Virus record (IMG/VR): IMGVR_UViG_3300010885_022061
Coordinates: 1-21,617 of that record
Source of the DNA: a virus
Length of the DNA stretch: 21,617 nucleotides
Reading direction: 5' to 3' (one strand)
Shown here: piece by piece, positions 1 through 20,286 of the stretch
Numbering within the stretch: the first letter of the stretch is position 1
How the letters are laid out: each line of letters begins with the position of its first letter
Translations under genes and position numbers: made by a program
Notes under the pieces: model-generated
Databases searched by the model: none
What the model was told of the DNA's origin: nothing
Seen by the model: the letters and a program-made list of their open reading frames with translations, nothing else

Positions 1-2855
1 ACAGTAGTTGCATTACCAGTAATACCATATTGTGATACTGTAATCTGTACATTACCACCAACATTAGCAGACGTAGAAGCATAGAACGTTGAAGTATTAA
101 CCTGACCCGTAATGTTAGCATATGTACCTGTAACATTAGCAAACACTAAAGGAGCATTAACATTGGCACTAGCATTTACAACAGTAGCTGATACGTTACC
201 GGTATGAATACCAGTGGTATTAGCATATACAGTAGTTGTGCTTATTGATGTAGTGTTAACAATCGTATTTCCAAGATTATTGGCAATATTAATCTGAGGT
301 GCACCAGTGATTGTACTATTGCCAATCGTCAATGATGATGCAGTAAGAGACATTGTTGGAACAGTAGTAGCATTACCTGTGATGCCGTATTGAGACACGG
401 TTATCTGAACGTTACCGCCAACATTTGCAGATGTTCCTGCATATAGTGTTGTGGTGTTAACTTGACCAGTTACATTAGCATAACCAGCAGATACGTTAGA
501 AGTAACTAATGTAGCAAGTACGTTAACAGTACTAACGTTTGAACTAGCAAATATAGAAGCAGTATTAATCTGATTCACAACGTTAATAGCAGCAGCATTA
601 ACTAATGTGGCATTAGCGGTAAATGTTGTTCCAACCGTGAATAATGCGGTATTAACGCTTGTTGTTACATTAGCATATCCAGTATGGACTAATGCTGTAG
701 CGTTAGCTATAAAATTGGTGCCAAAAGTTAGTAGTGCAGAATTGACACTTGTTGTTACATTAGCATATCCTGTACCAACAATAGCAGTTGAGTTAGCGAT
801 AAACCCAGAACCAGAAGTATGACTAAAAGAATTAACTACGCCACTATGATATATGCCTGAAGCGTTAGAACTTAATCCCCAACTAGATCCAATAGCAATA
901 GCATTAACTGTAGTATTACCTGTGCTATTTGCTAAGTTAATTGATGGAGCACCAGTGATAGTGTTATTACCAATTGTCAATGATGATGTAGTTAATGCCA
1001 TTGTTGGCACGGTGGCGGAACCAGTAATACCATATTGTGATACTGTTATTTGGGCGTTACCGCCAACATTAGCAGATGTAGTAGCAAATAACGTTGCTGT
1101 ATTTGTCTGATTAACTACATTAAGTGCTATAGCATTTACTAATGTAGCATTAGCAGTAAATGTTGTTCCAACAGTGTATAATGCTGTGTTAACGCTTGTA
1201 GTTACATTAGCATATCCAGTATGAACTAATGCCGTAGCATTAGCTATAAAGTTAGTTCCTACAGTATGACTAGAAGCATTAACTGCTCCAGTCACATTAG
1301 CATACCCGGTATGAACTAAGGCTGTAGCATTAGCAATAAATGTTGTTCCAACAGTGTATAATGCTGAGTTAACACTAGTGGTTACATTAGCATACCCTGT
1401 ATGAACTAATGCTGTAGCGTTAGCTATGAAACTTGAGCCAACTGTATGAGAAGCAGCATTTACAAAATTTGTAACATAAACGCCAGTATTATTCGCATCA
1501 AATCCCCAAGTCGAATCAATTGCATTAGCATAAATTATGGTGTTGCCAGTAGAGTTAGCAAGATTAATTGTTGGAGCACCAGTGATAGTGTTATTACCAA
1601 TTGTCAACGATGATGCAGTAAGAGACATTGTTGGAACAGTAGTTGCATTACCAGTAATACCATACTGTGAAACCGTCATTTGGACATTACCACCAACATT
1701 AGCAGATGTAGTAGCAAATAACGTTGCTGTATTTGTTTGGTTAACTACATTAAGCGCTATAGCATTTATTAATGATGCATTAGCAGTAAAAGCAGTTCCT
1801 ATATTGGCTGAAGTTGTAACATAAAGAGTTGCTGTATTTGTCTGATTAACTACATTAAGCGCTATAGCATTTACTAATGATGCATTAGCAGTAAAAGCAG
1901 TTCCTACGTTTGCGCTTGTAGCAACATATAATGTTGCTGTATTAACTTGTCCAGTTACATTAGCATAACTTGTATTTACACCAGTGACAGTGACTAAAGA
2001 AGAATTTACAACAGTGGCACCAATCGTTAATTCTTTAGGAGTAAGATTAGCTGTTGATGTTGAATTAGATGCTTTTACTAATCCTGAATTAACCACGACG
2101 TTTGAAATTGAATTTACAACTTGAATGCTTGAAGTTGTAAAATTAACATTAGCACCAATGTTTGCACCAGTTGAAAAATTGCCTGTTCCAATTGTAAGAA
2201 TAGTAGAGTTTACAATTGCACTACCTATTGTAAGATCTGATGGTGTAAGATTAGCAGTAGATGTTGAATTAGATGCTTTTACTAATCCTGAATTAACCAC
2301 AACGTTTGAAATTGAATTTACAACTTGAATGCTTGAAGTTGTAAAATTAACATTGGCACCTACATTAGCGCCAGTTGAAAAATTACCTGTTCCAATTGTA
2401 AGAACAGTTGCATTTACTACAGCAGAACCAATTGTTAAATCAAGTGGTGATAAATTTGCAGTTGATGTTGAATTAGAAATCTTAAGAAGATTTTGTGTTG
2501 CAACTAAATTTATAGTTGAGTTGCCAACAGAAACACTAATAGCATTTAACTGTACATTTGCACCAACTTTTAGAAAATCACCAGTTACTGAAGTGTTCGA
2601 AAGAATGTTAAGAACATTAGTAGTCGTTGCATTACCACCGCGCAAACCATCAGTCGCTACAACCGTGTTAGCGCCAAAGATACCAATAAGCTGTGCATTA
2701 CCCGTTGTATTAGCTAATGTTGCATTACCACCAGTAATAGATGTAGAAACCGTAATAACATCGGTTCTTAAAGCTTCTAGAAGTTTATTAGTTTGTGTGA
2801 TCCATGTTAAGAATGAATCTGTACTTATATTTACATTAGATACACTTCTAGACAT
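1..2855 (-). CDS. Long repetitive tail-fibre-like protein, C-terminus beyond the window
   Basis: An open frame of 951 codons runs from ATG at 2855-2853 to the window edge without a stop; it was read by hand from the reverse complement. The start is supported by an AGGA-type ribosome binding site about 9 bases upstream and by an 8-base overlap with the previous gene (ATGTCTAG). Residues 1-75 are non-repetitive (MSRSVSNVNISTDSFLTWIT..., ending TDGLRGGN). I associate this N-terminal pattern with attachment ends of marine phage fibres, an inference from memory. Residues about 127-280 are 68-residue tandem repeats. The rest is a hierarchy of Asn/Thr/Val/Ala-rich repeats (for example ATALVHTGYANVTTSVN and GNVQITVSQYGITGNA). 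No receptor-binding tip or chaperone domain is visible because the C-terminus is missing. Position after the peripheral baseplate genes fits a fibre or baseplate-attached adhesin. Structural role is likely; fibre identity is inference. Confidence 0.7.
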   Translation of the reverse strand, partial: MSRSVSNVNISTDSFLTWITQTNKLLEALRTDVITVSTSITGGNATLANTTGNAQLIGIFGANTVVATDGLRGGNATTTNVLNILSNTSVTGDFLKVGANVQLNAISVSVGNSTINLVATQNLLKISNSTSTANLSPLDLTIGSAVVNATVLTIGTGNFSTGANVGANVNFTTSSIQVVNSISNVVVNSGLVKASNSTSTANLTPSDLTIGSAIVNSTILTIGTGNFSTGANIGANVNFTTSSIQVVNSISNVVVNSGLVKASNSTSTANLTPKELTIGATVVNSSLVTVTGVNTSYANVTGQVNTATLYVATSANVGTAFTANASLVNAIALNVVNQTNTATLYVTTSANIGTAFTANASLINAIALNVVNQTNTATLFATTSANVGGNVQMTVSQYGITGNATTVPTMSLTASSLTIGNNTITGAPTINLANSTGNTIIYANAIDSTWGFDANNTGVYVTNFVNAASHTVGSSFIANATALVHTGYANVTTSVNSALYTVGTTFIANATALVHTGYANVTGAVNASSHTVGTNFIANATALVHTGYANVTTSVNTALYTVGTTFTANATLVNAIALNVVNQTNTATLFATTSANVGGNAQITVSQYGITGSATVPTMALTTSSLTIGNNTITGAPSINLANSTGNTTVNAIAIGSSWGLSSNASGIYHSGVVNSFSHTSGSGFIANSTAIVGTGYANVTTSVNSALLTFGTNFIANATALVHTGYANVTTSVNTALFTVGTTFTANATLVNAAAINVVNQINTASIFASSNVSTVNVLATLVTSNVSAGYANVTGQVNTTTLYAGTSANVGGNVQITVSQYGITGNATTVPTMSLTASSLTIGNSTITGAPQINIANNLGNTIVNTTSISTTTVYANTTGIHTGNVSATVVNASANVNAPLVFANVTGTYANITGQVNTSTFYASTSANVGGNVQITVSQYGITGNATT
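607..828 (-). repeat. 90-bp in-frame tandem repeats, cluster 1
   Basis: The sequence gttacattagcatatcc occurs at 664 and 754, exactly 90 bases apart. The unit encodes 30 residues of the form FIANATALVHTGYANVTTSV followed by a short linker (NSALYTVGTT-like). A third, diverged copy flanks them. Confidence 0.85.
1141..1452 (-). repeat. 90-bp in-frame tandem repeats, cluster 2
   Basis: The same 30-residue unit as cluster 1 appears here. The marker g(t/c)tcacattagcata-type sequence starts at 1201, 1291 and 1381, exactly 90 bases apart each time. The linker alternates between NSALYTVGTT-like and NASSHTVGTN-like forms. Confidence 0.85.
2020..2477 (-). repeat. 204-bp near-identical tandem repeat
   Basis: The sequence gt(t/a)gatgttgaattaga begins at 2053, 2257 and 2461, exactly 204 bases (68 codons) apart. 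Two full units (residues about 127-194 and 195-262 of the fibre protein) are nearly identical over long stretches, including the shared run tgaattaaccac. A third unit is partial and diverges after the ANLTP segment. The unit reads SNSTSTANL...LTIG...ILTIGTGNFSTGAN...VNFTTSSIQVVNSISN...VKA. Confidence 0.9.
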
Positions 2856-3069
2856 TCTTATTTCCTATTATCTGAAGAAGCATGTGTTTAATTTCATTGA
2901 AATCATTCTTTAAACTTTCAATTTGTAGTTGTACTTCTTTTATGGTGCTTGACTGTTGACGATTTGCAACAATTGTATCATAGTAAGAACTATCAGTATT
3001 TATAATAGCCATAGTTGACGTATCTCGTGCAAACTGATTATCAATTTTAACTAATCTTGGAAGAGCCAT
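2848..3069 (-). CDS. Small coiled-coil protein between the baseplate and fibre genes
   Basis: This gene encodes 73 residues starting MALPRLVKIDNQF. The N-terminal half carries a compact motif, RDTSTMAIINTD, followed by a YYDTIVANRQQ stretch. Residues about 42-69 have heptad-spaced hydrophobic residues (I, V, L, I, L, F, I, L) with Lys/Glu/Gln between, consistent with a short coiled coil. The start overlaps the upstream stop in TAATG at 3069, and its own stop overlaps the fibre start by 8 bases, so the three genes should be translationally coupled. I recall similar small proteins with an AI(I/V)NTD-type motif in other T4-like phages but cannot name a function. It could be a fibre-attachment adaptor or a small structural or assembly factor. 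It is a real gene by context; its role is unknown. Confidence 0.75.
   Translation of the reverse strand: MALPRLVKIDNQFARDTSTMAIINTDSSYYDTIVANRQQSSTIKEVQLQIESLKNDFNEIKHMLLQIIGNKNV
2997..3004 (-). promoter_or_regulatory. Possible T4-type late promoter element (TATAAATA) before the fibre gene
   Basis: TATAAATA on the minus strand matches the T4 late -10 consensus recognised by the gp55-type sigma factor. It lies inside the 73-residue gene (codons for IINT), about 140 bases upstream of the fibre start. An 8-base A/T motif is expected a few times per strand by chance at this base composition, so support is weak. Confidence 0.22.
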
Positions 3070-6000
3070 TATGCTGATACACCAATGACTCTTATATCTT
3101 CAACTTCAGGGACCAAGTTAATATTATTTGATAATAATACTATCTTGACTGCCATCACATTATACCCATCGAGTTCTACGTTCGTAGAAGCATAATATCT
3201 TACAATATTATAATTTTGTGGGTTAGTAAAAGCTGCGGTCTTATATTTAAGCCTATCAATCTTAAATCCTGATCCAATTACACTGCTGTTGGTTGTTGTA
3301 CTATTTATAGTCATTGATGTTGTATTTGCAATTGAAGTTGCAATTGCTACAAAGTAATTAGTATTAGATTGTAATGGATCATAGATTCTTATTAAATCAT
3401 TATTAGCAAGATCTGATGAAAAATTAGTACCAACGCCAGTAATAGTAGCACTACCAGATCCAACAGTAACGCTACCAGTTAGAGTAGAAAGTACTTCTGG
3501 ATATTTTGGAAATCCATATGTCAATGCAATAACATCATTTAAATTTGTTTTGCTACTCTGAAGTCCAGAACCATCAATCAGTTCTAAAGCACTCCAGCTC
3601 TTGTTGGTATAAGCTTCACCATCTGCTGTATGATAAATTTTTGCATAGACTTTAATATCTGTTCCAGATGGTTTGTATGCAGTCATGAATACACGAATAT
3701 CTTCAGCAAATTTGTTATTTGCAAAAGAAATTTTATTACTTACATACTTAGAATGAGCATTACCAGAACGAGTAGTTTCATTTGTATAATCACTGTTAAC
3801 GTCATATTGATAAGTAAACACATTTAGCATGTCAGTATGAAGAATTGGTGAAACATATAGTCCGCCACTAGAAGCGGCATATGGCTTCTTAGCATTCAAT
3901 CGTACTTTCATTACTGAAGATTTGTCTGAATTATAAAGATAAGTTGGAGAATTCACTTCATTAGATCTAGACATCATCAATCCACTATATTTCGTAATGT
4001 AGTTATTACCATCAGAAGTCGTAGCTAAAAATGATGTATTTACATAATAATTTCCACCATTTGAATATGCAAAATTATGTTGAATAGTTAATTCTGTATC
4101 AATAGATTCTCTATTCAATTTTATATCTGGATCAAATACGCTAATTGGTCGATTATCAACAGAAATTAGATTAGCTGAATATAGAGATGTTTCACCAAAG
4201 ATATATGACCCATCAATATTAGCAGTAAATGTTGCACCAGATCCAGCTGAAGAGTTGGATGTTAATACTGTTGAATTAGATACAATAAAATTTGGAGCAG
4301 AAGCAAACCCAACACCAACATTTGAGAACCTAAGAGCAACAATTCCACCTGCAGAATTTGTGACTACAGCTGCGGTTGCATTGAGAGTAGATCCACCACT
4401 ATATACACGAAGAATATCAGTATTTGTATAAGAACTTCCTCCTGCAGTAATGGTTACGTATGCAATTCCAGAACTTTGAAACTTAACTGAACTGTTAGCA
4501 TTTGTGTCAAAAAGAATCATGTTATTTGTACCATAATCGGCATCAAATACTTTAGCAATAGCAGTCTTCTTTACAAAAGCTGCAGTATTCGTAAATGTTA
4601 ATGGTTGATCCGTAGTCAAATATGTGTTATTTGCAATATAGGAAACTTGACGAATATCAGTGTTACTTCTGGTTAAATCTGTAACAACTATATAATCACC
4701 AATACCAAAGTCTTGAGTGAATACTGTGTTTGTTCCTATAAGAGCTGAATAAGAAGCGGATTCAGTTCCAATTCGTGTATCAACATTCACTGTACCTTGT
4801 TTAAAGAAACCTGAACCAGTAAATCCATGTGTTACGTTTGCAACTGTGTTACCATAATCTTGATACACAAATTCACCTGGATATGCGCTGTTTCCTGTTA
4901 AAGAATAACTTCCAACAGTAATAAATTCATAATCTCTGTGAGTAATTTCTACATCAGCAGTGTTGGCTTTGAACTTAGCAGCAAAAACTTCAAACATTAA
5001 ATCTTGATCGTTTATAGCTCTTAGTTGATCGTTTGTATAGTCAAAGTATTTGCCATCACCTTTACCACTTGCACCTGGTGATAGGTTAGAACCCGATTGG
5101 CCAATCGTACCAATTAATCTTTCACCTTGTTTGTTTGTCCATAGTTGGTATCCATTATCTTCATAATCTACAACAATACCATACAGAGTATCTGTCTTAA
5201 CGATTACCGGAGTGTCAAACAAAACCTTTGCAGCATTACCAAATACTTTAGAACCAGAAGAAATACCTGGAACTTTTATAGAACCAGAAAGAGCACTATC
5301 TGTCTTGATTGCGCTAGCATATCTAAGTATGCATACTACACTACAACCTTTTCCTGCGCCAAGTTGAATTGTGTATCTTCCGGAATCAGTTTTCTTATGA
5401 TTCCATGTAAATTTACCAACACCTTTGATTTCATTTGAGCCTCTTCCATATGACCAATCTGGTAAGGCTATAGCGCCACGACCAGCTTCAGCGGAATCAA
5501 GATACATTTTAGGCCCAACTGATTGTTTTTCAGTTGATGATAATTTAGAAATACCAGGGTAAGTAGCAGATGATGCTTGAATAAAGTTACCCTTTGTTGA
5601 ACTGGAAACATTATAATTTCCACCCTTGTTATCTGATCCTTTTGCATTAAAGAATAATGTGGCAGTAGAATCAATTGGAGCAAAATCAAAATATTGTGGA
5701 TCGATAGTTAATAAACTATCTTTTGGAACAACTATTTTAAATTTAGCATCAGTGTATAATGGACTATATGCATATGATTGAAGAGTTTCAGTATCAATCA
5801 CATCTTTTTGTACTACTTGATATTGAAGAATTGGAATCTCGTCATATGATAAACGAACTAGCGAATCAGTTAAGATATTGTCTGGCTTTGGTTCATGGTT
5901 TCCTTCTACGGGGCAAAGATGAACTGAGACACCAGGATTAAGTATACCAGAAATAGATTTTAATGCATCTGGTTTAGCTTTGAAGTATAAATCAACGCCA

Positions 6001-6077
6001 GTTAAAAAGCAATAGGGTGATCCATTCACGCGATCTCTAGGAACAAAAAAAGTTTGAATTGCATCGTACTTTGCCAT
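3069..6077 (-). CDS. Large virion structural protein, C-terminal partner of the DUF4815-type protein
   Basis: This gene encodes 1002 residues. The N-terminus DAIQTFFVPRDRVNG...CFLTGVDLYFKAKP resembles the module QTF.V...GVFLTSVDLFF that I recall at the C-terminal end of DUF4815-type phage structural proteins. It continues with KVLFDTPVIVKTDTLYGIVV and a QLWTN strand at residues about 284-314, ending at DQDLMFEVFAAKF (358-369). Residues about 428-507 and 866-940 are two copies of a G.GT.F....GD.I module. Residues about 536-622 are a GG.SYTN-type beta module. The C-terminus (residues about 778-1002) holds SNKISFANNKFAEDIRVFMT, KVYAKIYHT and AVKIVLLSNN...VPEVEDIRVIG, a closing domain typical of marine T4-like structural proteins. 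An AAAGG site 8 bases upstream supports the ATG, and its stop is in TAATG with the next gene. A peripheral baseplate or tail location is inferred from context. Confidence 0.75.
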   Translation of the reverse strand: MAKYDAIQTFFVPRDRVNGSPYCFLTGVDLYFKAKPDALKSISGILNPGVSVHLCPVEGNHEPKPDNILTDSLVRLSYDEIPILQYQVVQKDVIDTETLQSYAYSPLYTDAKFKIVVPKDSLLTIDPQYFDFAPIDSTATLFFNAKGSDNKGGNYNVSSSTKGNFIQASSATYPGISKLSSTEKQSVGPKMYLDSAEAGRGAIALPDWSYGRGSNEIKGVGKFTWNHKKTDSGRYTIQLGAGKGCSVVCILRYASAIKTDSALSGSIKVPGISSGSKVFGNAAKVLFDTPVIVKTDTLYGIVVDYEDNGYQLWTNKQGERLIGTIGQSGSNLSPGASGKGDGKYFDYTNDQLRAINDQDLMFEVFAAKFKANTADVEITHRDYEFITVGSYSLTGNSAYPGEFVYQDYGNTVANVTHGFTGSGFFKQGTVNVDTRIGTESASYSALIGTNTVFTQDFGIGDYIVVTDLTRSNTDIRQVSYIANNTYLTTDQPLTFTNTAAFVKKTAIAKVFDADYGTNNMILFDTNANSSVKFQSSGIAYVTITAGGSSYTNTDILRVYSGGSTLNATAAVVTNSAGGIVALRFSNVGVGFASAPNFIVSNSTVLTSNSSAGSGATFTANIDGSYIFGETSLYSANLISVDNRPISVFDPDIKLNRESIDTELTIQHNFAYSNGGNYYVNTSFLATTSDGNNYITKYSGLMMSRSNEVNSPTYLYNSDKSSVMKVRLNAKKPYAASSGGLYVSPILHTDMLNVFTYQYDVNSDYTNETTRSGNAHSKYVSNKISFANNKFAEDIRVFMTAYKPSGTDIKVYAKIYHTADGEAYTNKSWSALELIDGSGLQSSKTNLNDVIALTYGFPKYPEVLSTLTGSVTVGSGSATITGVGTNFSSDLANNDLIRIYDPLQSNTNYFVAIATSIANTTSMTINSTTTNSSVIGSGFKIDRLKYKTAAFTNPQNYNIVRYYASTNVELDGYNVMAVKIVLLSNNINLVPEVEDIRVIGVSA

Positions 6078-6085
6078 TTAAAATA

Positions 6086-6090
6086 CCTTT
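6086..6090 (-). promoter_or_regulatory. Ribosome binding site of the 1002-residue gene
   Basis: AAAGG lies 8 bases before the ATG at 6077 and overlaps the TAA stop of the preceding gene (6089-6091). Together with the 11-base gap it fixes the start. Confidence 0.7.
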
Positions 6091-9000
6091 AACTATTTGT
6101 AAATGTTACTTTTACTGGTAATACGCCTTCAGCTACTATCGTACCAGTAGAAGAACTTTCTTTCATTTGTAGAGTTTTGCTAGTGGATAATGTTTGGCCA
6201 ACTGCTTGTGATTCTGTTATCTTTCTTGTATTTAACTCTTTTGAAACTAAGTCTGATGGGACAGTATTTAAAAAGAATTGGAAATTAGCAATACCATACT
6301 TATCTGATTTTATTGGGTCGCCAATTTTTCCACCAATAGGTTTACACTTTGAACTATTATCTTTTCCATCAAAGAAAAAGTAAAATCTAGTAGAAGGTCT
6401 TAAACCATTTACAATAAACTGAAATGTTTGGCTAATGGTTGTTCTAACTGGAGTAGTTGGTTTTGGTGGCACAAATAGTGGGTTTAAAAATGGAAAAGTT
6501 ATAGTATTTAAAGTTTGATAAATTGGTGGAACAACCGCTTTCGGCGTAAATGTAGCAGGAATCTTAGTAAAGAATTTTCCTTTGTTATATGTCAATGGCA
6601 AAGCTGAACCAACATTTGGAACACCAGTTGCTTGTAATTGACTTACAACAGAAACGCTTTCAAATGGTAACATCAACGTCTTACCATATAAGCTTTGATT
6701 TATTGCTTCACCAGAATAAATCTTAAAAGGAAGATTTATTTGTTCATTTGCAGGCACTAATCTATTTCTTTCTGCATTATATCCAGCATTAAATTCTGGA
6801 TCATTAATATCTGCATAATTTAGAGAAGTAAAGTTATCAATAAAATAACCAAACTTAAACCGACTAACTTGAGTATTTGCACTGCTTGGAATTACTTCAT
6901 TTTTAACAGTATCTTCAACCAAAGATAGTGTTGAATAATATTCCAATGCTTCAACTCTATCCTGAAGGCTCTTAATGTCTCTCATTGTAAAGCCAGGTGT
7001 TTGACTATACTTGGTAGGATTAAGTTGAGCTTCTTTTGTAATTGAATAAAGTTTCTTTCTTTCATTCAAATTGACATGATTAATGACTTTAGTATCAATG
7101 AAAGCTAAAGTATTAGCAGACAAATTCTGAGGCAATGAAGGATATGGCACAATATTAAGTAATTCAATAACTAAACTATCGCTTGGAGTTTTTGGTGCAA
7201 CTGGAGTAAGACCAGGTTTTCCCTTGATTACATTGAAATCACCGTTAGATCCAATGATTACAAGATCCTTTCTTCCAACATAATATTCTGCATCAAATGT
7301 GATATCACTATCAGGCACAGGGAATTTTTGATCATTAACAGGATCACGCGTATTGCCAAATTTTGCAGCTCTTGCTGGTTCTGCTGGATGAATTGTAGCA
7401 GAAGCTTCAGTTGTGGACAAAACTGCAGTGTTTACAGAAAGAGGTCTAAAATCAAAGTATTCAATTAAATCTACATTCTGTCCTCTAGAAGTAATCATCT
7501 GAGGAATTTCTAATCTGTTAACGCTTGTAGTAAGATTAGCTAATAGTTTAGTATCATTTTCAGTATATGAACCAATACTGAATAGTGTATTTGATAAATT
7601 GTTGGAGAAACAATCAAATTGAACTAATAGTCTATCACCACCCGCCAAAGTCTGATTGGTACCAGGTTTAATGTAAAGATAGCTTTGGTTATATACATTC
7701 TCATCTTGATTATGATCAATCACAAAGTTTCTTGTAACATCTTCTATTCCGGACGTAGCAGACGTGAATGCATTTGTTGTTCCCTTATAAACTTTTCTTA
7801 GTCTGAATACATCAGGTACGCCTAGAGTCCAAGGACCAGAAGTGTTACCCGTATTATTGGAGCAGTCTATACGAACAAATAGATTTCTTTGAGCTTGCTT
7901 AGCAATTGGAGTAGCATTAGTTACTTTTACATTATATGCAACAGCAACGTTATTTGCGCCGCTTAATGTCTGGTTTAAATCAATGATCATTGTCTGTTGA
8001 GCGATATCAACGTTTGCAACACGCCCAGTTCTTGTTGAAAGAGGAACAGGAATAAAAGCAGGGAAAGCAAACGTGGCGGTCGAAACAGCATTTGTAAAAG
8101 AAGCATTAGAATCAATAGTTAAAAATGTACCATTCGTAATGCTTGTGATTCTTCTATGATCAAATCCACCAGTAGCATTTGCAGAAATTTTAATATAATC
8201 ACCAGCTTCAAATTGAGTAGTAAAACTTGTTCCAGTTCCAACTACATTTGTCGTTGTAGTATTGACTGAAATAGTTCCGGTGATAGCAGCTGCAGCAGCA
8301 ATATTGGCAAGGGGAATTACAATAATGTCTTCTTTTTCATTTGAATTTAGCGTACCAAGATAAGGGAACGTTTCATTACCAGTAACTGTTATTGTAATCT
8401 TACCGGCTGCGTTTGCAGTTAGCGCAGTTTGATTAATTGTTCTATACGTATATGAAATGTTGTTGACAGATTTAACTGCTTTTTCACCAACTGGGAAAAC
8501 TAATATATCATTAGCTGTTCCTTGAAGAGATGCAATGCTTGTGCCTAATGAAGTTGTGTCTAAAATAACATCAGCTACACCATCATAAGTTGCACCATCA
8601 TAGAACAATGAGCGAACATCTTTAAAGTTCTTGCCAGTGTTCATTGAAATATCAAATAGGTATAACCGATATATTGCTTGATTTGAACCAGGAATTCCTG
8701 ATTCATATATCATTGACCTAATTCTTGCAGAACCAATTTCAGAACCAGCAGCAGTTGGTGCAATGCCGTAGTTTGATCCAGTCGTTAAGAATGTTTTAGC
8801 AGTATCGCGTAAAGAAACTACGTCACCTGTTGAGAATAAGAATACGCCTGCAACGTTCTTAACGCGAATAAAGTTTTCATAATTTACACCGACTGATCTG
8901 TTTAATGCAATTTCGGTGTCAACAGATTTATCAAGAGTTGCTCTATAGTTACCCATTGTCTCTACGCGATAACCACTAATATATGCTTTGCCTGGATCAA

Positions 9001-10525
9001 TAATTATATCAAAATTATTTGCTTCATTTGAAGTGCCGGCATCTACCCATTCAAAATTTTCATCAGAAAGAGTAGAAACTAAGAAAGGATCGAGAACATA
9101 ATCTCCACTTTCTTCATATGTTCTTTTAGCAAGTTCATCTTCAATTGCTTTGTACTGTGTTACTCTATTCTGTTTAAAGGGTTTACCTTCAGAAAATTCA
9201 ACAATAGAGAAGAAATCATTATTCGCATCAGCATCGGTTTTATCAAGAACTACAAGAGTAGGAACTAGTTCAAGACGATCTGCGCCCGGTGCTGTATAAT
9301 TAAATGTTCCTAAAGCATTATCAAGAAGAGATTGATCTTGATTGCTGTTCTTAATAATTTCTGTGGTATCAAACCCAACTACTTTTGCGTCAGGTGTATT
9401 TGAATACTTTTCAACAATGGTAAACTGATTTGCAACTCTTGAAAAATAACCTAATTGATATATTACGCCATTACTAATAGAGAAACCATATCCGGTTCCT
9501 ACAGAAGAGTCTACAGTTGCGACTGTAACTTTAGCAAAATAATTTCTTGATTCTAAAGAAAGAGCGCTTGGAGTACCACCAATAGAAATAATAGTAGCAA
9601 AAGGAGGAACATAATATCCTTGACCACCAGAAGTAACGGTAAGTGTTATAAGCTTACCTGCACCATCTGTGACGAGTGAACCAGTTGCGCCTGAACCAAT
9701 TTTACTAATTAATCGTGCATTTGTTGGACCATTAGTTACTGTAACATTTTCTTCAGAAGCAAAAGTCCATTTTGCCGTATTTGCTGGGTTTGCGGTTAGG
9801 TCTGCATAAACTGGTCTTAGTTTAAGAACAATAGCTTCAGCATTTGCTGTAGTATTTGCTTCTACAACTACAGCTTGAGCACCAGAAGTAGATCCAATAA
9901 TTGTTTGGCCAGGAGAAAATGTAGAAAGAAGCCCTGAACTATTTGAGAATGTTTTACCTGAAGACGAATTTTGTACGCTTATAGCGCTTAAAAATAGTAC
10001 TGAATCTGTATTTGAGAATCCCGTGCTTCCATTATCAATACCAACTTCATAAACTGATTCTTCTTTATTATAGATTATAATTTGGTCATTTGAAGAAAAT
10101 GATGCTTCACCGGCAATACCACTGTTTATATACTTTAAGTATAGAGTATTTAAATCAGGAGCCTGTGTTTCAAACCCAGTGTTGGATGTAATAACATACG
10201 CATGAACGTTTGTGGTTTCATTGCGTGCATATAGACCAGGATAACCCGCAACGTTTACTGGAGCTCCGGTATTGGCTTCACTATCTTTGATTTTAATATA
10301 TGGAATATTATCATGAAAAGTAAAACCACAACCATCAATTATTGTTCCACGCTTAAAGATATTATCGCCAAACCGTTCAATCTGAGATTGAAGCATGGTT
10401 TGCAGTTGATTAAGTTCTCTAACCTGAACAGGAACTCCAGGCTTAAAAAGCACCTTATAGTAGTCATTATTACCATCATAGTCATCAAAATATGGTGGTG
10501 ATTCAAGGTTTGTCTTAATAGGCAT
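6089..10525 (-). CDS. DUF4815-type giant virion/baseplate structural protein
   Basis: This gene encodes 1478 residues. The N-terminus (MPIKTNLESPPYFDDYDGNN, then FKPGVPVQVRELNQLQTMLQ, F.DNIFKRGTIIDGC) is the hallmark I associate with the DUF4815 family of phage structural proteins. Further family-like landmarks are VIDHNQDENVYNQSYLYIK (about 934-952), LIEYFDFRP (1020-1028) and RDIKSLQDRVEALEYYSTLS (1182-1201), a short helical segment likely to oligomerise. Near the end (1366-1418) a domain reads FIVNGLRPSTRFYFFFDGKD...KSDKYGIANFQFFL. Residues 274-325 hold a GG.GYYVPP beta module and 747-820 a G.GTSFTTQFEAGDYI module, both shared with neighbouring genes. A GGAG site 6 bases before the ATG lies inside the last gp8-like codons, and the start immediately follows that gene's stop. 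It occupies the place of T4 gene 10, but I see no direct gp10 match. Precise role unknown; a baseplate or fibre-anchor protein is likely. Confidence 0.85.
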   Translation of the reverse strand: MPIKTNLESPPYFDDYDGNNDYYKVLFKPGVPVQVRELNQLQTMLQSQIERFGDNIFKRGTIIDGCGFTFHDNIPYIKIKDSEANTGAPVNVAGYPGLYARNETTNVHAYVITSNTGFETQAPDLNTLYLKYINSGIAGEASFSSNDQIIIYNKEESVYEVGIDNGSTGFSNTDSVLFLSAISVQNSSSGKTFSNSSGLLSTFSPGQTIIGSTSGAQAVVVEANTTANAEAIVLKLRPVYADLTANPANTAKWTFASEENVTVTNGPTNARLISKIGSGATGSLVTDGAGKLITLTVTSGGQGYYVPPFATIISIGGTPSALSLESRNYFAKVTVATVDSSVGTGYGFSISNGVIYQLGYFSRVANQFTIVEKYSNTPDAKVVGFDTTEIIKNSNQDQSLLDNALGTFNYTAPGADRLELVPTLVVLDKTDADANNDFFSIVEFSEGKPFKQNRVTQYKAIEDELAKRTYEESGDYVLDPFLVSTLSDENFEWVDAGTSNEANNFDIIIDPGKAYISGYRVETMGNYRATLDKSVDTEIALNRSVGVNYENFIRVKNVAGVFLFSTGDVVSLRDTAKTFLTTGSNYGIAPTAAGSEIGSARIRSMIYESGIPGSNQAIYRLYLFDISMNTGKNFKDVRSLFYDGATYDGVADVILDTTSLGTSIASLQGTANDILVFPVGEKAVKSVNNISYTYRTINQTALTANAAGKITITVTGNETFPYLGTLNSNEKEDIIVIPLANIAAAAAITGTISVNTTTTNVVGTGTSFTTQFEAGDYIKISANATGGFDHRRITSITNGTFLTIDSNASFTNAVSTATFAFPAFIPVPLSTRTGRVANVDIAQQTMIIDLNQTLSGANNVAVAYNVKVTNATPIAKQAQRNLFVRIDCSNNTGNTSGPWTLGVPDVFRLRKVYKGTTNAFTSATSGIEDVTRNFVIDHNQDENVYNQSYLYIKPGTNQTLAGGDRLLVQFDCFSNNLSNTLFSIGSYTENDTKLLANLTTSVNRLEIPQMITSRGQNVDLIEYFDFRPLSVNTAVLSTTEASATIHPAEPARAAKFGNTRDPVNDQKFPVPDSDITFDAEYYVGRKDLVIIGSNGDFNVIKGKPGLTPVAPKTPSDSLVIELLNIVPYPSLPQNLSANTLAFIDTKVINHVNLNERKKLYSITKEAQLNPTKYSQTPGFTMRDIKSLQDRVEALEYYSTLSLVEDTVKNEVIPSSANTQVSRFKFGYFIDNFTSLNYADINDPEFNAGYNAERNRLVPANEQINLPFKIYSGEAINQSLYGKTLMLPFESVSVVSQLQATGVPNVGSALPLTYNKGKFFTKIPATFTPKAVVPPIYQTLNTITFPFLNPLFVPPKPTTPVRTTISQTFQFIVNGLRPSTRFYFFFDGKDNSSKCKPIGGKIGDPIKSDKYGIANFQFFLNTVPSDLVSKELNTRKITESQAVGQTLSTSKTLQMKESSSTGTIVAEGVLPVKVTFTNS

Positions 10526-13500
10526 TTAGAGCTCCAAGATGATCTTTATTGTCTCTGTTTGTTCAGCTGAACGTGCAATTGGGTCCATGTTTTGAATGTA
10601 TACTACATCGCCAGACCAAGGAACCAAGTCACCTTTGTAAATCTTATTTATAGTTAATGTAGCACCGCTATTAGCACCAGTAATAGTATTAGCTATTAAA
10701 AAGTTTCCTTGCTCTTCTGTTACATAAATCGTATTGTTTAAAGTATTAGCAGTATGTAAATATGCATTAGCAAGGAATGCTCCGGCTGTATTTTGAATTA
10801 TTTTTTCATCTTCTACATAAGTTCCACTAATTGCAATAGATCCTTCATATCTTGTAGCTTGAAGAAAAGTAGTATAAGGTTTAGTTGCACCGCTAATTTG
10901 AATAGAATCAATGTTTGCTGTTGCAAGAGATGTGTTACCAATTACAAACGAGTTAACAGTAAAGAAACCTACACTATTTTGAACTTGAATTAAGTCAACA
11001 TCAAAAGTATCAATCGTTCCAGATGCACCAACATTCGCTAAGAAAATTGTAGCAGTTGAGTCTGTGAATAAGCCATTTGACATTAAACTCATGGTTGTTG
11101 CGTTTGCAATTGAACCAATTTTAGCCAACATTCTTCGTGAAGAAACAGGAGTTGTATTAACTACTGCAGATAAATTTGCACCAGATCCACCCGTCGTGGT
11201 TACTCCAACTGATGGTGCTGATGAATAATCATATCCCGAAGAACTCAAAATAGCTGAACGTATAACACCGTTTGCTGTGTCAACTGTACCTGAAGCATTA
11301 GAACTTGAAGTTGAACTACTAATTTGAACCGATTCATTTTCTACATAAGAAAATCCATTTTCAACTATAGAAACTGAAGTTAATCCACCAGTTACATTTG
11401 TCGTAGCTAATCCAGTTGCAACATTCACTACAGAATTTACACCTTTGATGTTTACTGTTTGGTTATTTGTAAACCCAGCACCTCCATTAGGAACTGTAGC
11501 AGTGTATACTGCATTAGTTAATGATGCACTAAGTGGTGTAAGAGAATGTGTTTGTATTGATGTAGGAACTGATGTTAAATTAATAGCTGCTCCACTATTT
11601 GTTGCTGTCAATTGAATATGAGTAGCATTTGTTGTAATTACAAAATAAGAAGTATTATTAGTTAATCCACCCAAAACTGTGTTTCCACTATTTGCAATAT
11701 ATGTTACAATATCATTGTTAACAAATCTCGTTCGGTTTGTGCCAAGACCAATAAATCCATTAACTGTAGCATTACCTATTAAAACAGAAGTTGTGTTACC
11801 AAAGAAAGTTTGAGCTGTAGTATTAGAAAATAGAACTGTTCCATTTACGTAACTTGCTTGGCCTTGAACAGTTACTGTTTCATTATTCGTATACCCTTTT
11901 CCTCCGGAAGTAAGAGTAATGCTTGTAAGCCCACCTGTAGCATTTGTTGTGGCAAAACCAGTAGCTGAAGAATTTCCGGAAGTTTGACCCGTAATTCCTA
12001 AAGATTGATTATTTCTGAATCCTGACCCACCTGAGGAGAATGTAAGATTAGTAATGCTATTGAATCTTACTTCCGTGATTGCTCCGTTTACAGTAACAGC
12101 ATATGCTACTGCGCCTGAACCACCGCCACCTGTGAACGTTAAGCTGTCGCCCGTAACGTAACCACTTCCACCTTGAGAAACAAGAATGTTAGTTACTTCT
12201 GAACCTTTAAGATCTGCAATGTAAACATAATCATTTATTTTAAATGTGTCTTGAAGATTAACACTATTTGAAGTAATAGAATTACTTGTATTGCTAATCG
12301 TAACCATTCCGTCTATTTTAATTGGTCTTACTTGATAAAGCTTTTCATTTGCTGCAAATGTACCAGAAATATTTCCAACAGTTAATCCAACGTTTGAAAA
12401 TGCAGGATCTTTAATGATACCGATTACTCTATAATCGTTTTCAGTAAGAATAGTATTAGATTCACCATTTGCAAATGAAACACTAATTCCTGCTCTGGAA
12501 CCTCCAAGTTCTGCTTGAACATTTGCTCCATGTCCACCGCGCGGAGGCATAATAACCGCTAAATTAGCAGAATTAGAAATAGAAATAACATTAGACACTT
12601 GAACGTTTGCAAATGCAAAACAATATCCAGCACCTCTATTTAATATTTCAATTTTATAGATTGAATTACTTGCTGCGGTATTGACGAGTGCTCGTGCTTC
12701 AGCTTCGGCAGTTTGTTTTCCATCACCAGTGATTAAAACTAAAGGAGAAATTTCATAAGTAGAAGTTGCATCTGGCGCAGTAGTAAATGCACTATTGACT
12801 ATGATCTGCTTAGTGTTACCAGAAACACGATAGCCATTTACTTTTCTATAACCACCTTTTCCTTTTCCTTCAGTGATCTTAATGATACAACTATAATATT
12901 GATTATTTGCAGGAGAAGCATCAGATCCTACATTATATACTAAAGTATTACCATTTACAGCAACATCTTCAGTTTTAAATTGCCCGCTATAAAAATTATT
13001 ATATCCGGCACCATTACTTGAAACTGTAATAACATCAATTGCGCCAAATATTGCATTTGCAGTGACATTAGTATCTTCAATTACTGGAATATAACTCGTA
13101 GTTGCGAATTTATCAAATACATCTTTAGTAATTGTAAAAAGATATTTCCACTGATATCCATCTGAAGTTTCATAGATAATGTCATCTGCTGCAGTTTCAT
13201 TATAGTCAGGTTTAATTGTAGATGGCGCACCATTGTTATTAAACAAGCATTTAAATACGTAATAATTGCTTCCAGCGCGCGATATTGTATAAAACATCTT
13301 TCCAAATAATTCACCATCTTGATCACTGTATTGCGTATAAACTGTTCCGGCTGTCCAATCATACCGTGGAATCATAACTTTAACATCATTACCGGTAATT
13401 TGTTTTCCAAAAACCATCTGTCTATAAGCATCAATATTTAACGATTGAGTGCTATTATTTGGATACGCAACATTAGAATCACCGCCAGTATATTCGGTAT

Positions 13501-13618
13501 GTTTACCGGCAAACGCATAAAAAATGGTATTCGCGGGTTCAGTTAATGATTCAATAAATTGATTAACCGAATAGTTTTTAAAATTATTTGTGACAAGTTT
13601 ATGTGTATTTGCTGCCAT
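10526..13618 (-). CDS. gp8: Baseplate wedge protein gp8-like, with large internal repeat insert
   Basis: This gene encodes 1030 residues; T4 gp8 has about 334. In T4, gp8 is a dimeric wedge subunit that binds gp7 and gp10. T4-like landmarks appear in order: TIFYAFAG near residue 31 (T4 has NTIFITFG), KVMIPRYDW at 80-88 (T4 AVIPRRDW), DGYQWKYLFTI at 153-163 (T4 DGYVWEYLFEI), NDYRVIGIIKDP at 394-405 (T4 GFRQISIITNP), and the C-terminus GDVVYIQNMDPI...QTETIKIIL at 1003-1028 (T4 GEMIYMENRPPI...QTEEINILF). T4 strings are from memory. Between about 410 and 990 sits an Asn/Ser/Thr/Gly-rich insert with two copies of a GG.GFTNN...ATTN(A/V)TGGLTS module. The ATG is 2 bases after the gp7-like stop and has no good Shine-Dalgarno sequence, suggesting reinitiation. 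Confidence 0.88.
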   Translation of the reverse strand: MAANTHKLVTNNFKNYSVNQFIESLTEPANTIFYAFAGKHTEYTGGDSNVAYPNNSTQSLNIDAYRQMVFGKQITGNDVKVMIPRYDWTAGTVYTQYSDQDGELFGKMFYTISRAGSNYYVFKCLFNNNGAPSTIKPDYNETAADDIIYETSDGYQWKYLFTITKDVFDKFATTSYIPVIEDTNVTANAIFGAIDVITVSSNGAGYNNFYSGQFKTEDVAVNGNTLVYNVGSDASPANNQYYSCIIKITEGKGKGGYRKVNGYRVSGNTKQIIVNSAFTTAPDATSTYEISPLVLITGDGKQTAEAEARALVNTAASNSIYKIEILNRGAGYCFAFANVQVSNVISISNSANLAVIMPPRGGHGANVQAELGGSRAGISVSFANGESNTILTENDYRVIGIIKDPAFSNVGLTVGNISGTFAANEKLYQVRPIKIDGMVTISNTSNSITSNSVNLQDTFKINDYVYIADLKGSEVTNILVSQGGSGYVTGDSLTFTGGGGSGAVAYAVTVNGAITEVRFNSITNLTFSSGGSGFRNNQSLGITGQTSGNSSATGFATTNATGGLTSITLTSGGKGYTNNETVTVQGQASYVNGTVLFSNTTAQTFFGNTTSVLIGNATVNGFIGLGTNRTRFVNNDIVTYIANSGNTVLGGLTNNTSYFVITTNATHIQLTATNSGAAINLTSVPTSIQTHSLTPLSASLTNAVYTATVPNGGAGFTNNQTVNIKGVNSVVNVATGLATTNVTGGLTSVSIVENGFSYVENESVQISSSTSSSNASGTVDTANGVIRSAILSSSGYDYSSAPSVGVTTTGGSGANLSAVVNTTPVSSRRMLAKIGSIANATTMSLMSNGLFTDSTATIFLANVGASGTIDTFDVDLIQVQNSVGFFTVNSFVIGNTSLATANIDSIQISGATKPYTTFLQATRYEGSIAISGTYVEDEKIIQNTAGAFLANAYLHTANTLNNTIYVTEEQGNFLIANTITGANSGATLTINKIYKGDLVPWSGDVVYIQNMDPIARSAEQTETIKIILEL
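10532..10535 (-). promoter_or_regulatory. Ribosome binding site of the DUF4815-type gene
   Basis: GGAG lies 6 bases before the ATG at 10525, within the penultimate codons of the gp8-like gene. The start codon directly follows that gene's TAA (10526-10528). Confidence 0.7.
11276..11488 (-). repeat. GG.GF/ATGGLT beta module, gp8-like copy 2
   Basis: Residues about 711-781 of the gp8-like protein read NGGAGFTNNQTVNIKG...ATTNVTGGLTSVSI...YVENESVQIS. It is more diverged in its second half than copy 1. Confidence 0.78.
11825..12037 (-). repeat. GG.GF/ATGGLT beta module, gp8-like copy 1
   Basis: Residues about 528-598 of the gp8-like protein read SGGSGFRNNQSLGITG...ATTNATGGLTSITLTSGGKG followed by YTNNETVTVQGQ. 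This is the closest in-window relative of the copy in the gp7-like gene. Confidence 0.8.
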
Positions 13619-13620
13619 TT

Positions 13621-16600
13621 TTACAATGATTCTATTTTTACTGCGGTTAAATTAGCGGTTGCGGCAGTTGTATTATTAGAATACAATACTACTACACCAT
13701 TGGAAGTCGAGTTAGCACTGAAAGTGCCTTGTGTATTTGAGATTACTAGTATATTTATTACTGATGCAATATTGCTGTCACTGATAATTTGTGTATTTGA
13801 TGTTATTGATGTAGCATTAGCAATACTATTTGCGCCAATAATTTGTCGATCACTTGCAAATGTTCCTACAACATCTTTGATTATTAAAGTTGTAGTGTTT
13901 GAAAGCACTACATTACCTGTTGCTGAATTTTGAGAAACTATCGAATTTATTACACCATATGAATTGGAAGTAGAACCAAATACTTGTCTAGTATTAGCAA
14001 AATTACCAAAGATATTAACCACTTGAATTGATGTAGAATTGACTGATACAACTTTACCCATTGCAGTATTTACATTATAAACATTAGCAGTTACGCTTGA
14101 ATTATGTTTATATTGATAAACTGATTCACCATTTGAGAAAGAATTAGAAACATTACTTAAGAATAATGTTTTTACTTGCTGATACACGGTTTGTGATGTT
14201 GGGAAAGTTGTTGATGTAACACCATTAGCAATTGCAGTAGTAGATGAATTAGAACTTGAAATTGTTGCATTGTTTGTAATTGAACCTGAAGTAGTTGAGA
14301 CTCTAATCACTGATGAATTAGATGCAATAACTGTTCCAATAAATGTTTCCGATCCAACTGAACCTTGATATACTCTTTCACCAGAAACAAATGATTGAGT
14401 AGTATTGCTTGGTAAAGCTACTGTTTTCATAATAACATCAATAAAAGGATTAACTACTATCTTACGCTGAATAATTGATTCAATATTTGAAGTATTCGCA
14501 AATGTTCCTCTTGTATTTGATAAGTATAGAGTAGTATGTGTTGCGTTTGAACTCTTATACTGCAAATACCCTGAAGCTGCATTTACTTGTGTATTAGACT
14601 GATATACTGTTGCTCCTACTTCATATGAAACCGTAGTATTGCTTAATACTAATTCAGCAGACGGATAATCTTTAGCATAACCAGTTGCAGTGTTGACTGA
14701 ACCATTTGTTTGATACACAAAAAGATTAGGAATAATTTGTTCAGTATTTGATACATTCTTAAATATTACATTAGCTGTCGTTAGATTTACATTAGCAATC
14801 TCTATTGGTAACTCATTAATTTCTTCCAATAATACTTTGCCAAATACTTCAGTACCTGCTACATGTAAAACTTTCTTAAACATGTTTGAATATTTTTCAA
14901 ATGGTAGTCTAGAAATAATCTGATAAGAATATTCTTGATAGAATTGACCATCAAATAAGTTTGAATTTTGACTCAAGAAGCCTTTTTGATTTCTAAAATA
15001 TCCTTCACCTTTTCCTTGCTTTTCAAGAATTAACTTAGCTGTTCCAAGCAGTGAACCGTCTTGTGATATAAAATCTAAAACATCACCATTTGAATATCCA
15101 AAGCCAGAATCAGCTAAGTCAAGTGAAACTACGTAACCATTGGCGATAGTTGAATCAGCAGTAACATTTGCATTGATTCCTGACTTTGTATCATCATAAT
15201 CAAATGCTACTAAGTTAGCAGAAACGCCTGAAGATAAACCAATAACCATACTATTAGTTGTGACTTCAAAGAAATTTGCAAGGCTTAACCGTTTAACATA
15301 TAATGTTGAATCATTTGCAACACCATGAATAAGGGCTTGCGTGTTGACGGTTATGTTAGAAGTATTTACAGTATCAACTATAGCATTTGCAACAGTTAAA
15401 GTTCCTCTAATCAAACCATTTGAACTATTTGAAGACACTTGAAAATTAGAAGAAACAGAATTAATTGTAATTGATCCAACTCGTGTTGTTGGATTTATAG
15501 AAACACTTTGAACAATTGCATTAGCAACAATGGTTGTGCTATTGGCATATTGTTGAATTTGTTCATTTACCTGGAAGAAGTTATAACTTACTAATGTTAC
15601 AGTTGCATTTGCACCTGAAGTTGCACCTTTTATTTTATAAACACCATTTGAAAACCCATTTGATACTGACCTAATAGTCATAGTTCCAGCATTAGAAGTA
15701 ATGACAGAAGTTTGCAAAGTACCATAACCAATATTTGCAGTGCCATTTGATTGATAAATTATTTCTCCAAGAGTGAAAGGAGCAGTTGCATCAGTAACAG
15801 TAAGTATATCTACATTACCACTCGTAGCACTTGATACTGTTAATATGTTAACATTTGCAATGTTTCTACTTTGTTGAATTAATTCACCATTAGCAAAGTT
15901 TCCTGTTGCGTTCATAACTGTAAAGATATAATCATTTGCACCCTGTGCAACAATTGCAGGTTCAACTACTGCAACAAATGGATCAAGCGTATAGTTTGTG
16001 CCTTTACTAATACCAGTAATTTCAGTAATAGTTCCAACCACTTTGCTTGAAATATCTAAACAGTCAAGAATAATAGAATTTATGTTTCCAGCTGGAAATT
16101 TAATAAACCCATAACCATTTGAAGAAATGCCAGAACCGGTACCATCTAAGATAAATGCAGTATTTGTAAAATATACGTTTGCTGCATTATTTGAAGAAAT
16201 TAAATCTTGATTGACTACTACAGTTTCTTCATATGATAAATCTCCAACTGAGAATCCAGCTAGAGAACCTTCACTAACAAGTTCGATATTTGCTATAGTG
16301 GATGAGCCAGGAATAATATTGATGACACCAGTAGCATTTGTAGATGATGTTCCACTTTGAATTGTGAGAGTTTCATTATCTATGTAATTAGATAATCCAG
16401 ATGTAATGGTTACTCTTGTTAATCCACCAGTAGCATTTGTAGTAGCTGTGGCAGTAGCCGTACTAATAGTTGAAGTATCACCAATCAAAGTTAATGCTTG
16501 AGCATTAACAAATCCAGCACCACCAGTAGAAACAACTACAAACCCAGATGGAACTTGAGCTCTAATGTAATTAGATTCAAGTTTTGAAAATGCATTATCA

Positions 16601-18045
16601 ACATCATAAACGCCAATGGTTGTAGAAAATGAATTTACTTGTGCATATGTAGAAATGGAAGCCCTTGTGTATACATTTGCAACGGATGGTCGGAATACCC
16701 CATTGACATTAGATACAGTTAATGCTAGATTTGCTGATGTTCCTATTACATCGTAGACTATGCCATTTGCCCATTCAACTGTTGAATTTCCTTGGTAAAC
16801 TTCATCATTTATTTTAAATGAACCATGTGAATCATAGCAATATAAAACTACATTACTCGAAACACCCATAACATTTGCGGTTGCTGTCTTATCAGTAATG
16901 CTTGTAGCCGTAGCAAATGTTGCATTACCCGTTATATAGATTGTGCTTGTTCCAAGTTCAACATTTCCTCTGTTCGTATTGACTAATAACTCACCAGTTT
17001 TAGTTACAGTATTTTGAGTGACTGCTAAAATTCTTCCATTTGCTGCAAGTGAACCATTTGAATGGTATTTTTGAAATACTTCTTTTGAAGCAAATGCGCC
17101 AGTCATCGTTGTGAATATGATATTAGCTAAAGGTTGTGTAACTTTCTCAAATAGCAAATATGTGTTTGGAACAGAGGTATTTGCCATAATCACATTATTA
17201 ACAACTAATACTCTCTCAGACACAATGACTTGAGCATTAGTAGAAAAACCCCAACCGCCATCAACCAAAGCAAATTCAACAACACCTGTAACGTTAGTAA
17301 CTTCTGTTACTCGACCTTTTGCTTGAGCTCCTGTAGTAGTTGAATCAATATCAACAATATCTCCTACAGCAAATCCTGAACCACCTGCAATTACTTCAAA
17401 TCTAGAAAGAGATCCAATTATTCTTGGAGAATCTGTGAAGTTATTAGAATAAGAAATTGGTTCATGGACTTGAAAATCTTTATTGATATTAGATATGAAA
17501 AAAACATCAATGTTTTGAGCGTTGATTCTTTTTCTAATTAATTTTTCAACGAAAGCCGTAGCACCAGAAAGAGCTCCTGTAATCTGACTTCCTACAAAAT
17601 TAATATTATCAGGATGACCAGTGATTTCAAGATAATATGGAGTTGTGTATTCACTAGCAGATAACCTAAAGATGTCATCTGCTGGAACATAAACTTGTGC
17701 TGGGATACCATATACTAATCTAAAGAATAGATCTATAGATCTTTGCGATCCTTTAGATTTATAGAATTCTAATGCATGCTTAATAAAAAGCTGTTTATTT
17801 GAATCAGTTGTAAATACAATATTTTTTAAATATTGTTCTTTAAATTGCTTTATGAAAGTATCTAAAGTTCTATCGATATCGCTATATTCTGAAAGACGAC
17901 GTGAATGATAAAGAGTATTTCCATTTTCCTCTAACCATTCATAATATGCTTTAACAAACGCAATAAACAACTCTCCTTCTTCATTATAAAAAGAAGGAAA
18001 TTGTGACTGAATTAAAGTCGATATATTTTTTTCAATATCTTTCAT
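13621..18045 (-). CDS. gp7: Baseplate wedge protein gp7-like, greatly expanded
   Basis: This gene encodes 1474 residues between gp6 and gp8, the position of T4 gene 7 (about 1032 residues, the wedge component joining gp6, gp8, gp10 and gp53). Residues about 24-120 (LFIAFVKAYYEWLEENGNTL, YLKNIVF, ALEFYKSKGS, SIDLFFRLVYG) resemble the C-terminal third of T4 gp7 as I recall it (FEAFCEAYIQYL, YKRNIYL, YDFYSTKGIE, YKFLFKVLY). A second conserved block at about 1036-1075 (QEYSYQIISRLPFEKYSNMF then VLHVAGTEVFGKVLLEE) resembles the later T4 segment SYYVMKIKSNLPSSRW...VHPVGFGF. Residues about 206-1005 are an inserted beta-repeat region and 1090-1474 a repetitive tail with many F..GE.VYQ motifs. The T4 gp7 N-terminal region is not seen. 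The start shares one base with the gp6 stop (TAATG). Family assignment rests on motifs and synteny, not on alignment. Confidence 0.78.
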   Translation of the reverse strand: MKDIEKNISTLIQSQFPSFYNEEGELFIAFVKAYYEWLEENGNTLYHSRRLSEYSDIDRTLDTFIKQFKEQYLKNIVFTTDSNKQLFIKHALEFYKSKGSQRSIDLFFRLVYGIPAQVYVPADDIFRLSASEYTTPYYLEITGHPDNINFVGSQITGALSGATAFVEKLIRKRINAQNIDVFFISNINKDFQVHEPISYSNNFTDSPRIIGSLSRFEVIAGGSGFAVGDIVDIDSTTTGAQAKGRVTEVTNVTGVVEFALVDGGWGFSTNAQVIVSERVLVVNNVIMANTSVPNTYLLFEKVTQPLANIIFTTMTGAFASKEVFQKYHSNGSLAANGRILAVTQNTVTKTGELLVNTNRGNVELGTSTIYITGNATFATATSITDKTATANVMGVSSNVVLYCYDSHGSFKINDEVYQGNSTVEWANGIVYDVIGTSANLALTVSNVNGVFRPSVANVYTRASISTYAQVNSFSTTIGVYDVDNAFSKLESNYIRAQVPSGFVVVSTGGAGFVNAQALTLIGDTSTISTATATATTNATGGLTRVTITSGLSNYIDNETLTIQSGTSSTNATGVINIIPGSSTIANIELVSEGSLAGFSVGDLSYEETVVVNQDLISSNNAANVYFTNTAFILDGTGSGISSNGYGFIKFPAGNINSIILDCLDISSKVVGTITEITGISKGTNYTLDPFVAVVEPAIVAQGANDYIFTVMNATGNFANGELIQQSRNIANVNILTVSSATSGNVDILTVTDATAPFTLGEIIYQSNGTANIGYGTLQTSVITSNAGTMTIRSVSNGFSNGVYKIKGATSGANATVTLVSYNFFQVNEQIQQYANSTTIVANAIVQSVSINPTTRVGSITINSVSSNFQVSSNSSNGLIRGTLTVANAIVDTVNTSNITVNTQALIHGVANDSTLYVKRLSLANFFEVTTNSMVIGLSSGVSANLVAFDYDDTKSGINANVTADSTIANGYVVSLDLADSGFGYSNGDVLDFISQDGSLLGTAKLILEKQGKGEGYFRNQKGFLSQNSNLFDGQFYQEYSYQIISRLPFEKYSNMFKKVLHVAGTEVFGKVLLEEINELPIEIANVNLTTANVIFKNVSNTEQIIPNLFVYQTNGSVNTATGYAKDYPSAELVLSNTTVSYEVGATVYQSNTQVNAASGYLQYKSSNATHTTLYLSNTRGTFANTSNIESIIQRKIVVNPFIDVIMKTVALPSNTTQSFVSGERVYQGSVGSETFIGTVIASNSSVIRVSTTSGSITNNATISSSNSSTTAIANGVTSTTFPTSQTVYQQVKTLFLSNVSNSFSNGESVYQYKHNSSVTANVYNVNTAMGKVVSVNSTSIQVVNIFGNFANTRQVFGSTSNSYGVINSIVSQNSATGNVVLSNTTTLIIKDVVGTFASDRQIIGANSIANATSITSNTQIISDSNIASVINILVISNTQGTFSANSTSNGVVVLYSNNTTAATANLTAVKIESL
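16321..16533 (-). repeat. GG.GF/ATGGLT beta module, gp7-like copy
   Basis: Residues about 505-575 of the gp7-like protein read GGAGFVNAQALTL...ATTNATGGLTRVTITSG... YIDNETLTIQSGTSSTNATG. The same ordered motifs occur twice in the gp8-like protein (positions 11825-12037 and 11276-11488). Similarity is also visible in DNA: aatccaccagtagcatttgt at 16421 compares with ccacctgtagcatttgt at 11931 and aatccaccagttacatttg at 11382. Confidence 0.8.
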
Positions 18046-20278: not shown

Positions 20279-20286
20279 TATTTATA
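20279..20286 (-). promoter_or_regulatory. Possible T4-type late promoter (TATAAATA) before gp25
   Basis: On the minus strand the sequence is GTATAAATAGG, and the first TAA is the stop codon of the 363-residue gene. A T4-type late promoter here would start transcription roughly 6 bases downstream, leaving a leader of about 13 bases to the gp25 ATG. It is the only one of four such motifs that sits at a gene boundary. A match by chance in AT-rich DNA cannot be excluded. Confidence 0.38.

Follow-up and report, generated by a model that had tools for sequence, protein, structure and literature searches.

We describe a phage gene, gene A, that in our estimate (probability roughly 0.78) encodes a long fibre whose repeat shaft lies between fixed ends and changes in length by in-register recombination. 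The product would be a long tail or side fibre, probably a trimer, attached to the virion by a conserved N-terminal part. A beta-rich repeat shaft would come next, and a conserved beta-sandwich cap resembling the C-terminal part of gp9 would close the fibre. Recombination between imperfect copies in register, carried out by phage or host enzymes, would gain or lose whole in-frame units, so that shaft length would shift while the N-terminus and the cap stay unchanged; units may also pass between gene A and a second, fibre-like gene (gene C). Such changes in length may alter reach or adsorption, and reach may be the trait that is selected.

The window, that is, the whole stretch of DNA that was analyzed, is a complete IMG/VR record of 21617 bases. 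The source phage is water-borne, and all sequences compared with the window are metagenome assemblies (assembled contigs). Coordinates are those of the window unless another contig is named, and gene A with all of its features lies on the minus strand. The open reading frame at 3..2855 holds the nested-repeat array and is open at the contig end, which cuts off the 3′ end of the gene; 951 amino acids (aa) of the 5′ part of gene A are visible. The gene adjoins a T4-type baseplate module (3069..20260, minus strand) with gp8-, gp6-, and gp25-type wedge family matches and a DUF4815 match. Pfam and PHROG scans of the window proteins matched phrog_261, phrog_219, phrog_438, and Pfam Phage-Gp8 in this block; with gp25, gp6, and gp8 wedge homologues in a single block, the baseplate is that of a T4-type myovirus. 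The gp6 homologue is nearest to that of Caulobacter phage Cr30 (42%), not to that of a pelagiphage. At 10526-18045, two proteins of the baseplate-wedge type (1030 and 1474 aa) are far longer than the matched families and contain repetitive stretches, and a 363-aa protein inside the baseplate block (20282-21373) had no PHROG match at 0.001. No reverse transcriptase of a diversity-generating retroelement was among the matches of the window proteins scanned in these general family searches. In the related contig L003, a 2OG-Fe(II) oxygenase and a fatty acid desaturase are encoded downstream of the fibre genes (L003:7999-12083). The available text of PMC7029224 reports desaturase and 2OG-Fe oxygenase genes in freshwater SAR11 (Fonsibacter) myophages of PMP group D, and the pair in L003 is a lead that may point to the host of these phages.

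The N-terminal domain of gene A (aa 1-96; 2568..2855) is 95-100% identical in four strains; a helix at about residues 12-31 appears only in a low-confidence model. After this domain come 68-aa (204-nt) repeats at 1998..2477, with two full copies and part of a third, followed by two copies of a 35-aa (105-nt) repeat at 1723..1943. A first array of 30-aa (90-nt) units lies at 1131..1475 and a second at 588..836, and the start of a further 120-aa super-unit (3..107) is cut by the contig end. The initial annotation had proposed 90-nt units nested in larger super-units, and both levels were recovered: the 90-nt spacing is exact at starts 1201/1291/1381 in the first array (TRF period of 90 at 1143-1424) and 664/754 in the second, and super-units 648 and 627 nt apart are marked by members of one repeat family at 251, 899, and 1526. 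Its description of high DNA similarity between units was overstated, as the 10 pairwise comparisons of the five starts gave 58-77% identity over 90 nt. Further repeat offsets in the gene are 105, 204, 360, 537, and 630 nt. At codon offsets of 30, 35, 68, 120, 179, 209, 210, 215, 245, and 425, 7.0-10.9% of codons are identical, against a codon-shuffled mean of 4.6-4.7% at the tested offsets, and 10 of 11 offsets lay above all 200 shuffles. The 216-codon offset (648 nt) was not above chance across the whole gene (0.067 versus a shuffle maximum of 0.068) because the 648-nt repeat is local.

Searching for relatives with the first 130 residues of the protein gave six loci, of which four (L002 to L005) are close. 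Over the upstream genes, identity to the window is 99.96% for L002, 97.7-97.8% for L005 (95.0% over the nearest 2944 nt upstream), 97.1% for L003, and 95.6-95.9% for L004; the L004 figure is a BLAST value, since indels shift the ungapped comparison and make it invalid there. The complete gene A orthologues encode 714 aa (L003), 923 aa (L004), and 1253 aa (L002 and L005), that is, three lengths in four genes. The predicted length variation is thus present as in-frame, whole-unit copy-number differences between close relatives, the opposite of one copy number in all of them. All internal differences among the orthologues are whole in-frame blocks, and both gene ends are kept in every case. L002 differs from L004 by blocks of 630 and 360 nt and from L003 by blocks of 1257 and 360 nt, while L004 and L003 differ by one 627-nt block. 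No block distinguishes L002 from L005, which have an identical architecture with 124 substitutions. The 630-nt block missing from the L004 allele maps to 1035..1664, with a junction that slides over 15 nt, and the block missing from the L003 allele maps by pairwise alignment to 624..1790 (1167 nt, or 1257 nt relative to L002). Terminal gaps of 25 and 33 nt between the cut window gene and L003 and L004, respectively, were read as alignment end effects. The window and L002 are the only near-clonal pair and differ by 90 nt in pairwise alignment, with one more unit in L002; the site of this unit in the window is 658..771, and its exact position slides over 113 nt. A fifth contig, L018, starts inside gene A; its first 22 nt are the final 22 nt of the gene part present in the window. 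The window and L018 are probably two halves of one phage, for which arithmetic gives a gene A of 1223 aa; the case for length variation does not rest on joining them.

Synonymous difference between copies within the window is 0.46-0.64, compared with 0.09 between L002 and L005 over the gene. The copies thus predate the divergence of these strains, and the proposal that the window units are recent duplications is not supported. Given this age, loss is the best reading of the short alleles: the shorter genes more likely arose by in-register recombination that removed units, and a possible alternative is that the long alleles gained old units from another source. The extra unit of L002 is the only one that looks recent, and it could reflect assembly collapse. 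Between L002 and L005, a single pair, the synonymous difference falls along the gene from 0.22 at the N-terminus to 0.09 in the shaft and 0.02 in the cap.

Two further genes bear on the exchange of units. Gene B, directly downstream of gene A, encodes 302 aa in all five contigs holding it; from a list of 80 gene B loci, only these five strain-group contigs were used, the other loci matching weakly. Gene C lies two genes downstream of gene A, past the window's contig end. It encodes 1490 aa in L002 and in L018, where it is identical over 4473 nt, and 656 aa with another C-terminus in L003, and it is cut in L004 and L005. The first ~1170 nt of gene C are the same in L002 (13705-18177) and L003 (6032-8002), and the differing C-termini look like the outcome of a tip exchange beside shared repeats. 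Repeat units are common to genes A and C; one stretch of 341 nt in L002 matches at 84.5%, and the longest exact stretch between the two genes is 99 nt. In L005, nucleotides 1447-1533 of gene A equal nucleotides 3124-3210 of L002 gene C, exactly over 87 nt, with gene A flanks that are those of the L002 allele. Inside this unit, windows of 60 nt show 0 mismatches to gene C versus up to 12 to the allele. The unit is a clear non-allelic replacement by a C-type unit, at an allelic site corresponding to 1326..1404 in the window; the match is to gene C of L002, that of L005 being cut. Within L005 gene A, a second unit is identical to a different unit of that gene along 65 nt. A literature search combining gene conversion, unequal crossing, and tail fiber found no report, from which we do not claim absence from print.

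These length differences could have arisen during assembly if all of the phages carried one long array that short reads collapsed to various extents. L002 contains a 113-nt exact run at an offset of 90, which suffices for k-mer collapse, so the 90-nt difference between the window and L002 could be of this kind. Assembly is also stressed at the fibre genes, as four of the six contigs in the strain group (the window, L018, L004, and L005) end inside them. At the junctions of the 360-, 627-, 630-, and 1257-nt blocks, however, exact identity in the longer alleles extends over no more than 5-15 nt, and each junction links equivalent points of two repeat copies, which makes k-mer collapse unlikely there; repeat copies this far apart are about 69-77% identical. 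The 360-nt junction is located identically in L003 and L004, and the frame and both gene ends are preserved in every case. L003 matches its left parent as far as gene position 1070 and its right parent from about 1067 onward, a point that is the same in two copies of one unit. The check for a collapsed assembly that the initial annotation had advised thus speaks for the four larger junctions and leaves the 90-nt unit in doubt. Assembly artefact as the general cause is very unlikely, and recombination between copies, as originally suggested, is the best reading of these in-register joins.

Recombination need not have been driven by the repeats. The length classes could be old mosaicism, acquired from unsampled phages through allelic or horizontal exchange. 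L018 and L002 differ at 31 positions over 6467 nt, and 29 of these fall in one 217-nt tract of gene A (L018:138-354) with no donor among the sampled sequences; mosaicism is frequent in the tail fibre genes of T4-type phages, according to the available part of PMC2993671. We nevertheless regard mosaicism as an unlikely source of the length classes, since the L003 and L004 junctions are explicable from copies in L002 and L005, with no outside sequence needed, and every block consists of whole codons with copies joined in register. It is just as improbable, in our judgment, that the units are functional receptor-binding modules whose copy number sets avidity or specificity and not reach. That reading would suit the purifying selection on the units (pN/pS of 0.29-0.40 between copies), and duplications of the T4 adhesin segment (gene 37), studied by Tetart in 1996, reportedly widen host range. 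The copies differ mutually, however (pN of about 0.19-0.20), and no binding motif is evident in the units.

For the preferred reading, a shaft of changing length between fixed ends, the C-terminal end is the cap, the last 123 residues of gene A, in which 0-2 positions differ in all 10 pairs of five sequences. A model of the cap (pLDDT of 86, built with 23 related domains) has as its best PDB match T4 gp9 residues 170-283 (Z of 13.6, rmsd of 2.3, 106 aligned, 12% identity), and a fold like that of the gp9 C-terminal beta-sandwich is predicted for the cap. Other solved matches were C-terminal parts of tailspikes, and matches among predicted viral structures included cyanophage tail fibres. The cap domain also terminates gene B. 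A shared gp9-like fold by itself shows no function. The cap sequence had 0 matches in a search of the PDB, and no gp9 family was among the family matches of the complete protein, the structural match being to the cap only. The repeat protein matched no Pfam or PHROG family at an E value of 0.001, and at E values up to 1 the complete L002 protein gave weak hits only, none near the curated cut-off. No sequence match to a tail-fibre family of Pfam or PHROG was found that would indicate a T4 gp37-type adhesin. The units lack the G-X-Y periodicity of collagen-like fibres, and no collagen family was matched at E values up to 1. A tblastn search of 50,697 phage records with the window protein found no match at 1e-5; the C-terminal part matched three phage records, weakly. 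With no family match, the term fibre rests on position, composition, and cap fold. Modelling the complete L003 chain reached a pLDDT of only 40, too low to yield a shaft geometry.

An alignment search with the N-terminal part found 26 loci, comprising the four strains and 22 further loci, two of which (L115 and L125) are contigs already returned by the first search. Family members without repeats keep one length (222 aa in 4/4 and 267 aa in 5/5). L117 to L120 are short, 222-aa members with no repeats, and their C-terminal stretch may resemble an S74-type chaperone domain. The repeat members L129 to L131 and L134 all have 898 aa; the DNA of the first three is identical, and L134 has 91.7% gene identity. 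The lineage of L132 and L133 has 12/24-aa repeats in the homologous gene. These two contigs are 98.2% identical upstream and, in the repeat region, one is displaced against the other by 72 nt (24 aa), L132 being cut. Length therefore varies in a second lineage, yet the constant 898 aa indicates that variation is not universal. The shared architecture of L002 and L005 despite their 124 differences, together with the constant 898 aa, likewise indicates that change is not rapid everywhere.

In T4 gene 37, it is a segment of the receptor-binding adhesin that is duplicated. Gene A resembles it in the duplication of a fibre-gene segment in a T4-type phage but differs in that the cap is constant, the shaft varies, and no gp37 family is matched. 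The resemblance to T4 gp9, the long tail fibre connector, lies in the predicted 170-283 fold of the cap, one common domain at 12% identity, while the remaining protein differs. The available text of PMC6365445 describes 1.8-kb tandem in-frame tail-fibre duplications in Enterococcus phage EfV12-phi1, a myovirus, in the laboratory under host resistance. There too, in-frame fibre-segment repeats of varying copy number alter gene length, whereas the units described here are old, diverged, and nested, vary between natural strains, and are common to a second gene. In Streptococcus thermophilus phages, collagen-like repeats in tail fibres are recombination sites and can be lost (as cited in the available part of PMC7242381); gene A shares with them fibre-gene repeats as recombination sites but has nested units of 30, 35, 68, and 120 aa with no G-X-Y. 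The T4-related Campylobacter group II phages CP21 and CP220 also carry related repeat units at several places, but these are described, in the portion of PMC4546147 available, as lying mostly outside genes, separating genome modules, and thought to recombine, whereas the repeats here are coding. Variable tail-fibre islands are reported for marine and SAR11 phages in the accessible text of PMC3909814 and PMC7029224. Repeat-driven length change in tail fibres is already known; a constant cap combined with unit exchange between two fibre genes is less usual.

Research on phage fibres focuses on specificity-changing tips. In gene A, the tip region is more conserved than any other part (0-2 of 123 residues differ), and shaft length differs by as much as 539 residues among strains with an upstream identity of about 95% or higher. 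A bolder proposal, doubtful at present, is that genes A and C draw on a common pool of exchangeable shaft units and that recombination within and between the two genes may tune fibre reach while the gene A cap is held constant; natural phage populations would then possess a system that diversifies fibre length and preserves the tip. Contigs built from short reads often stop inside repeat fibre genes of this kind, which calls for caution. If the variation holds true at the level of reads, fibre reach would vary in nature and could be tested against host surface layers.
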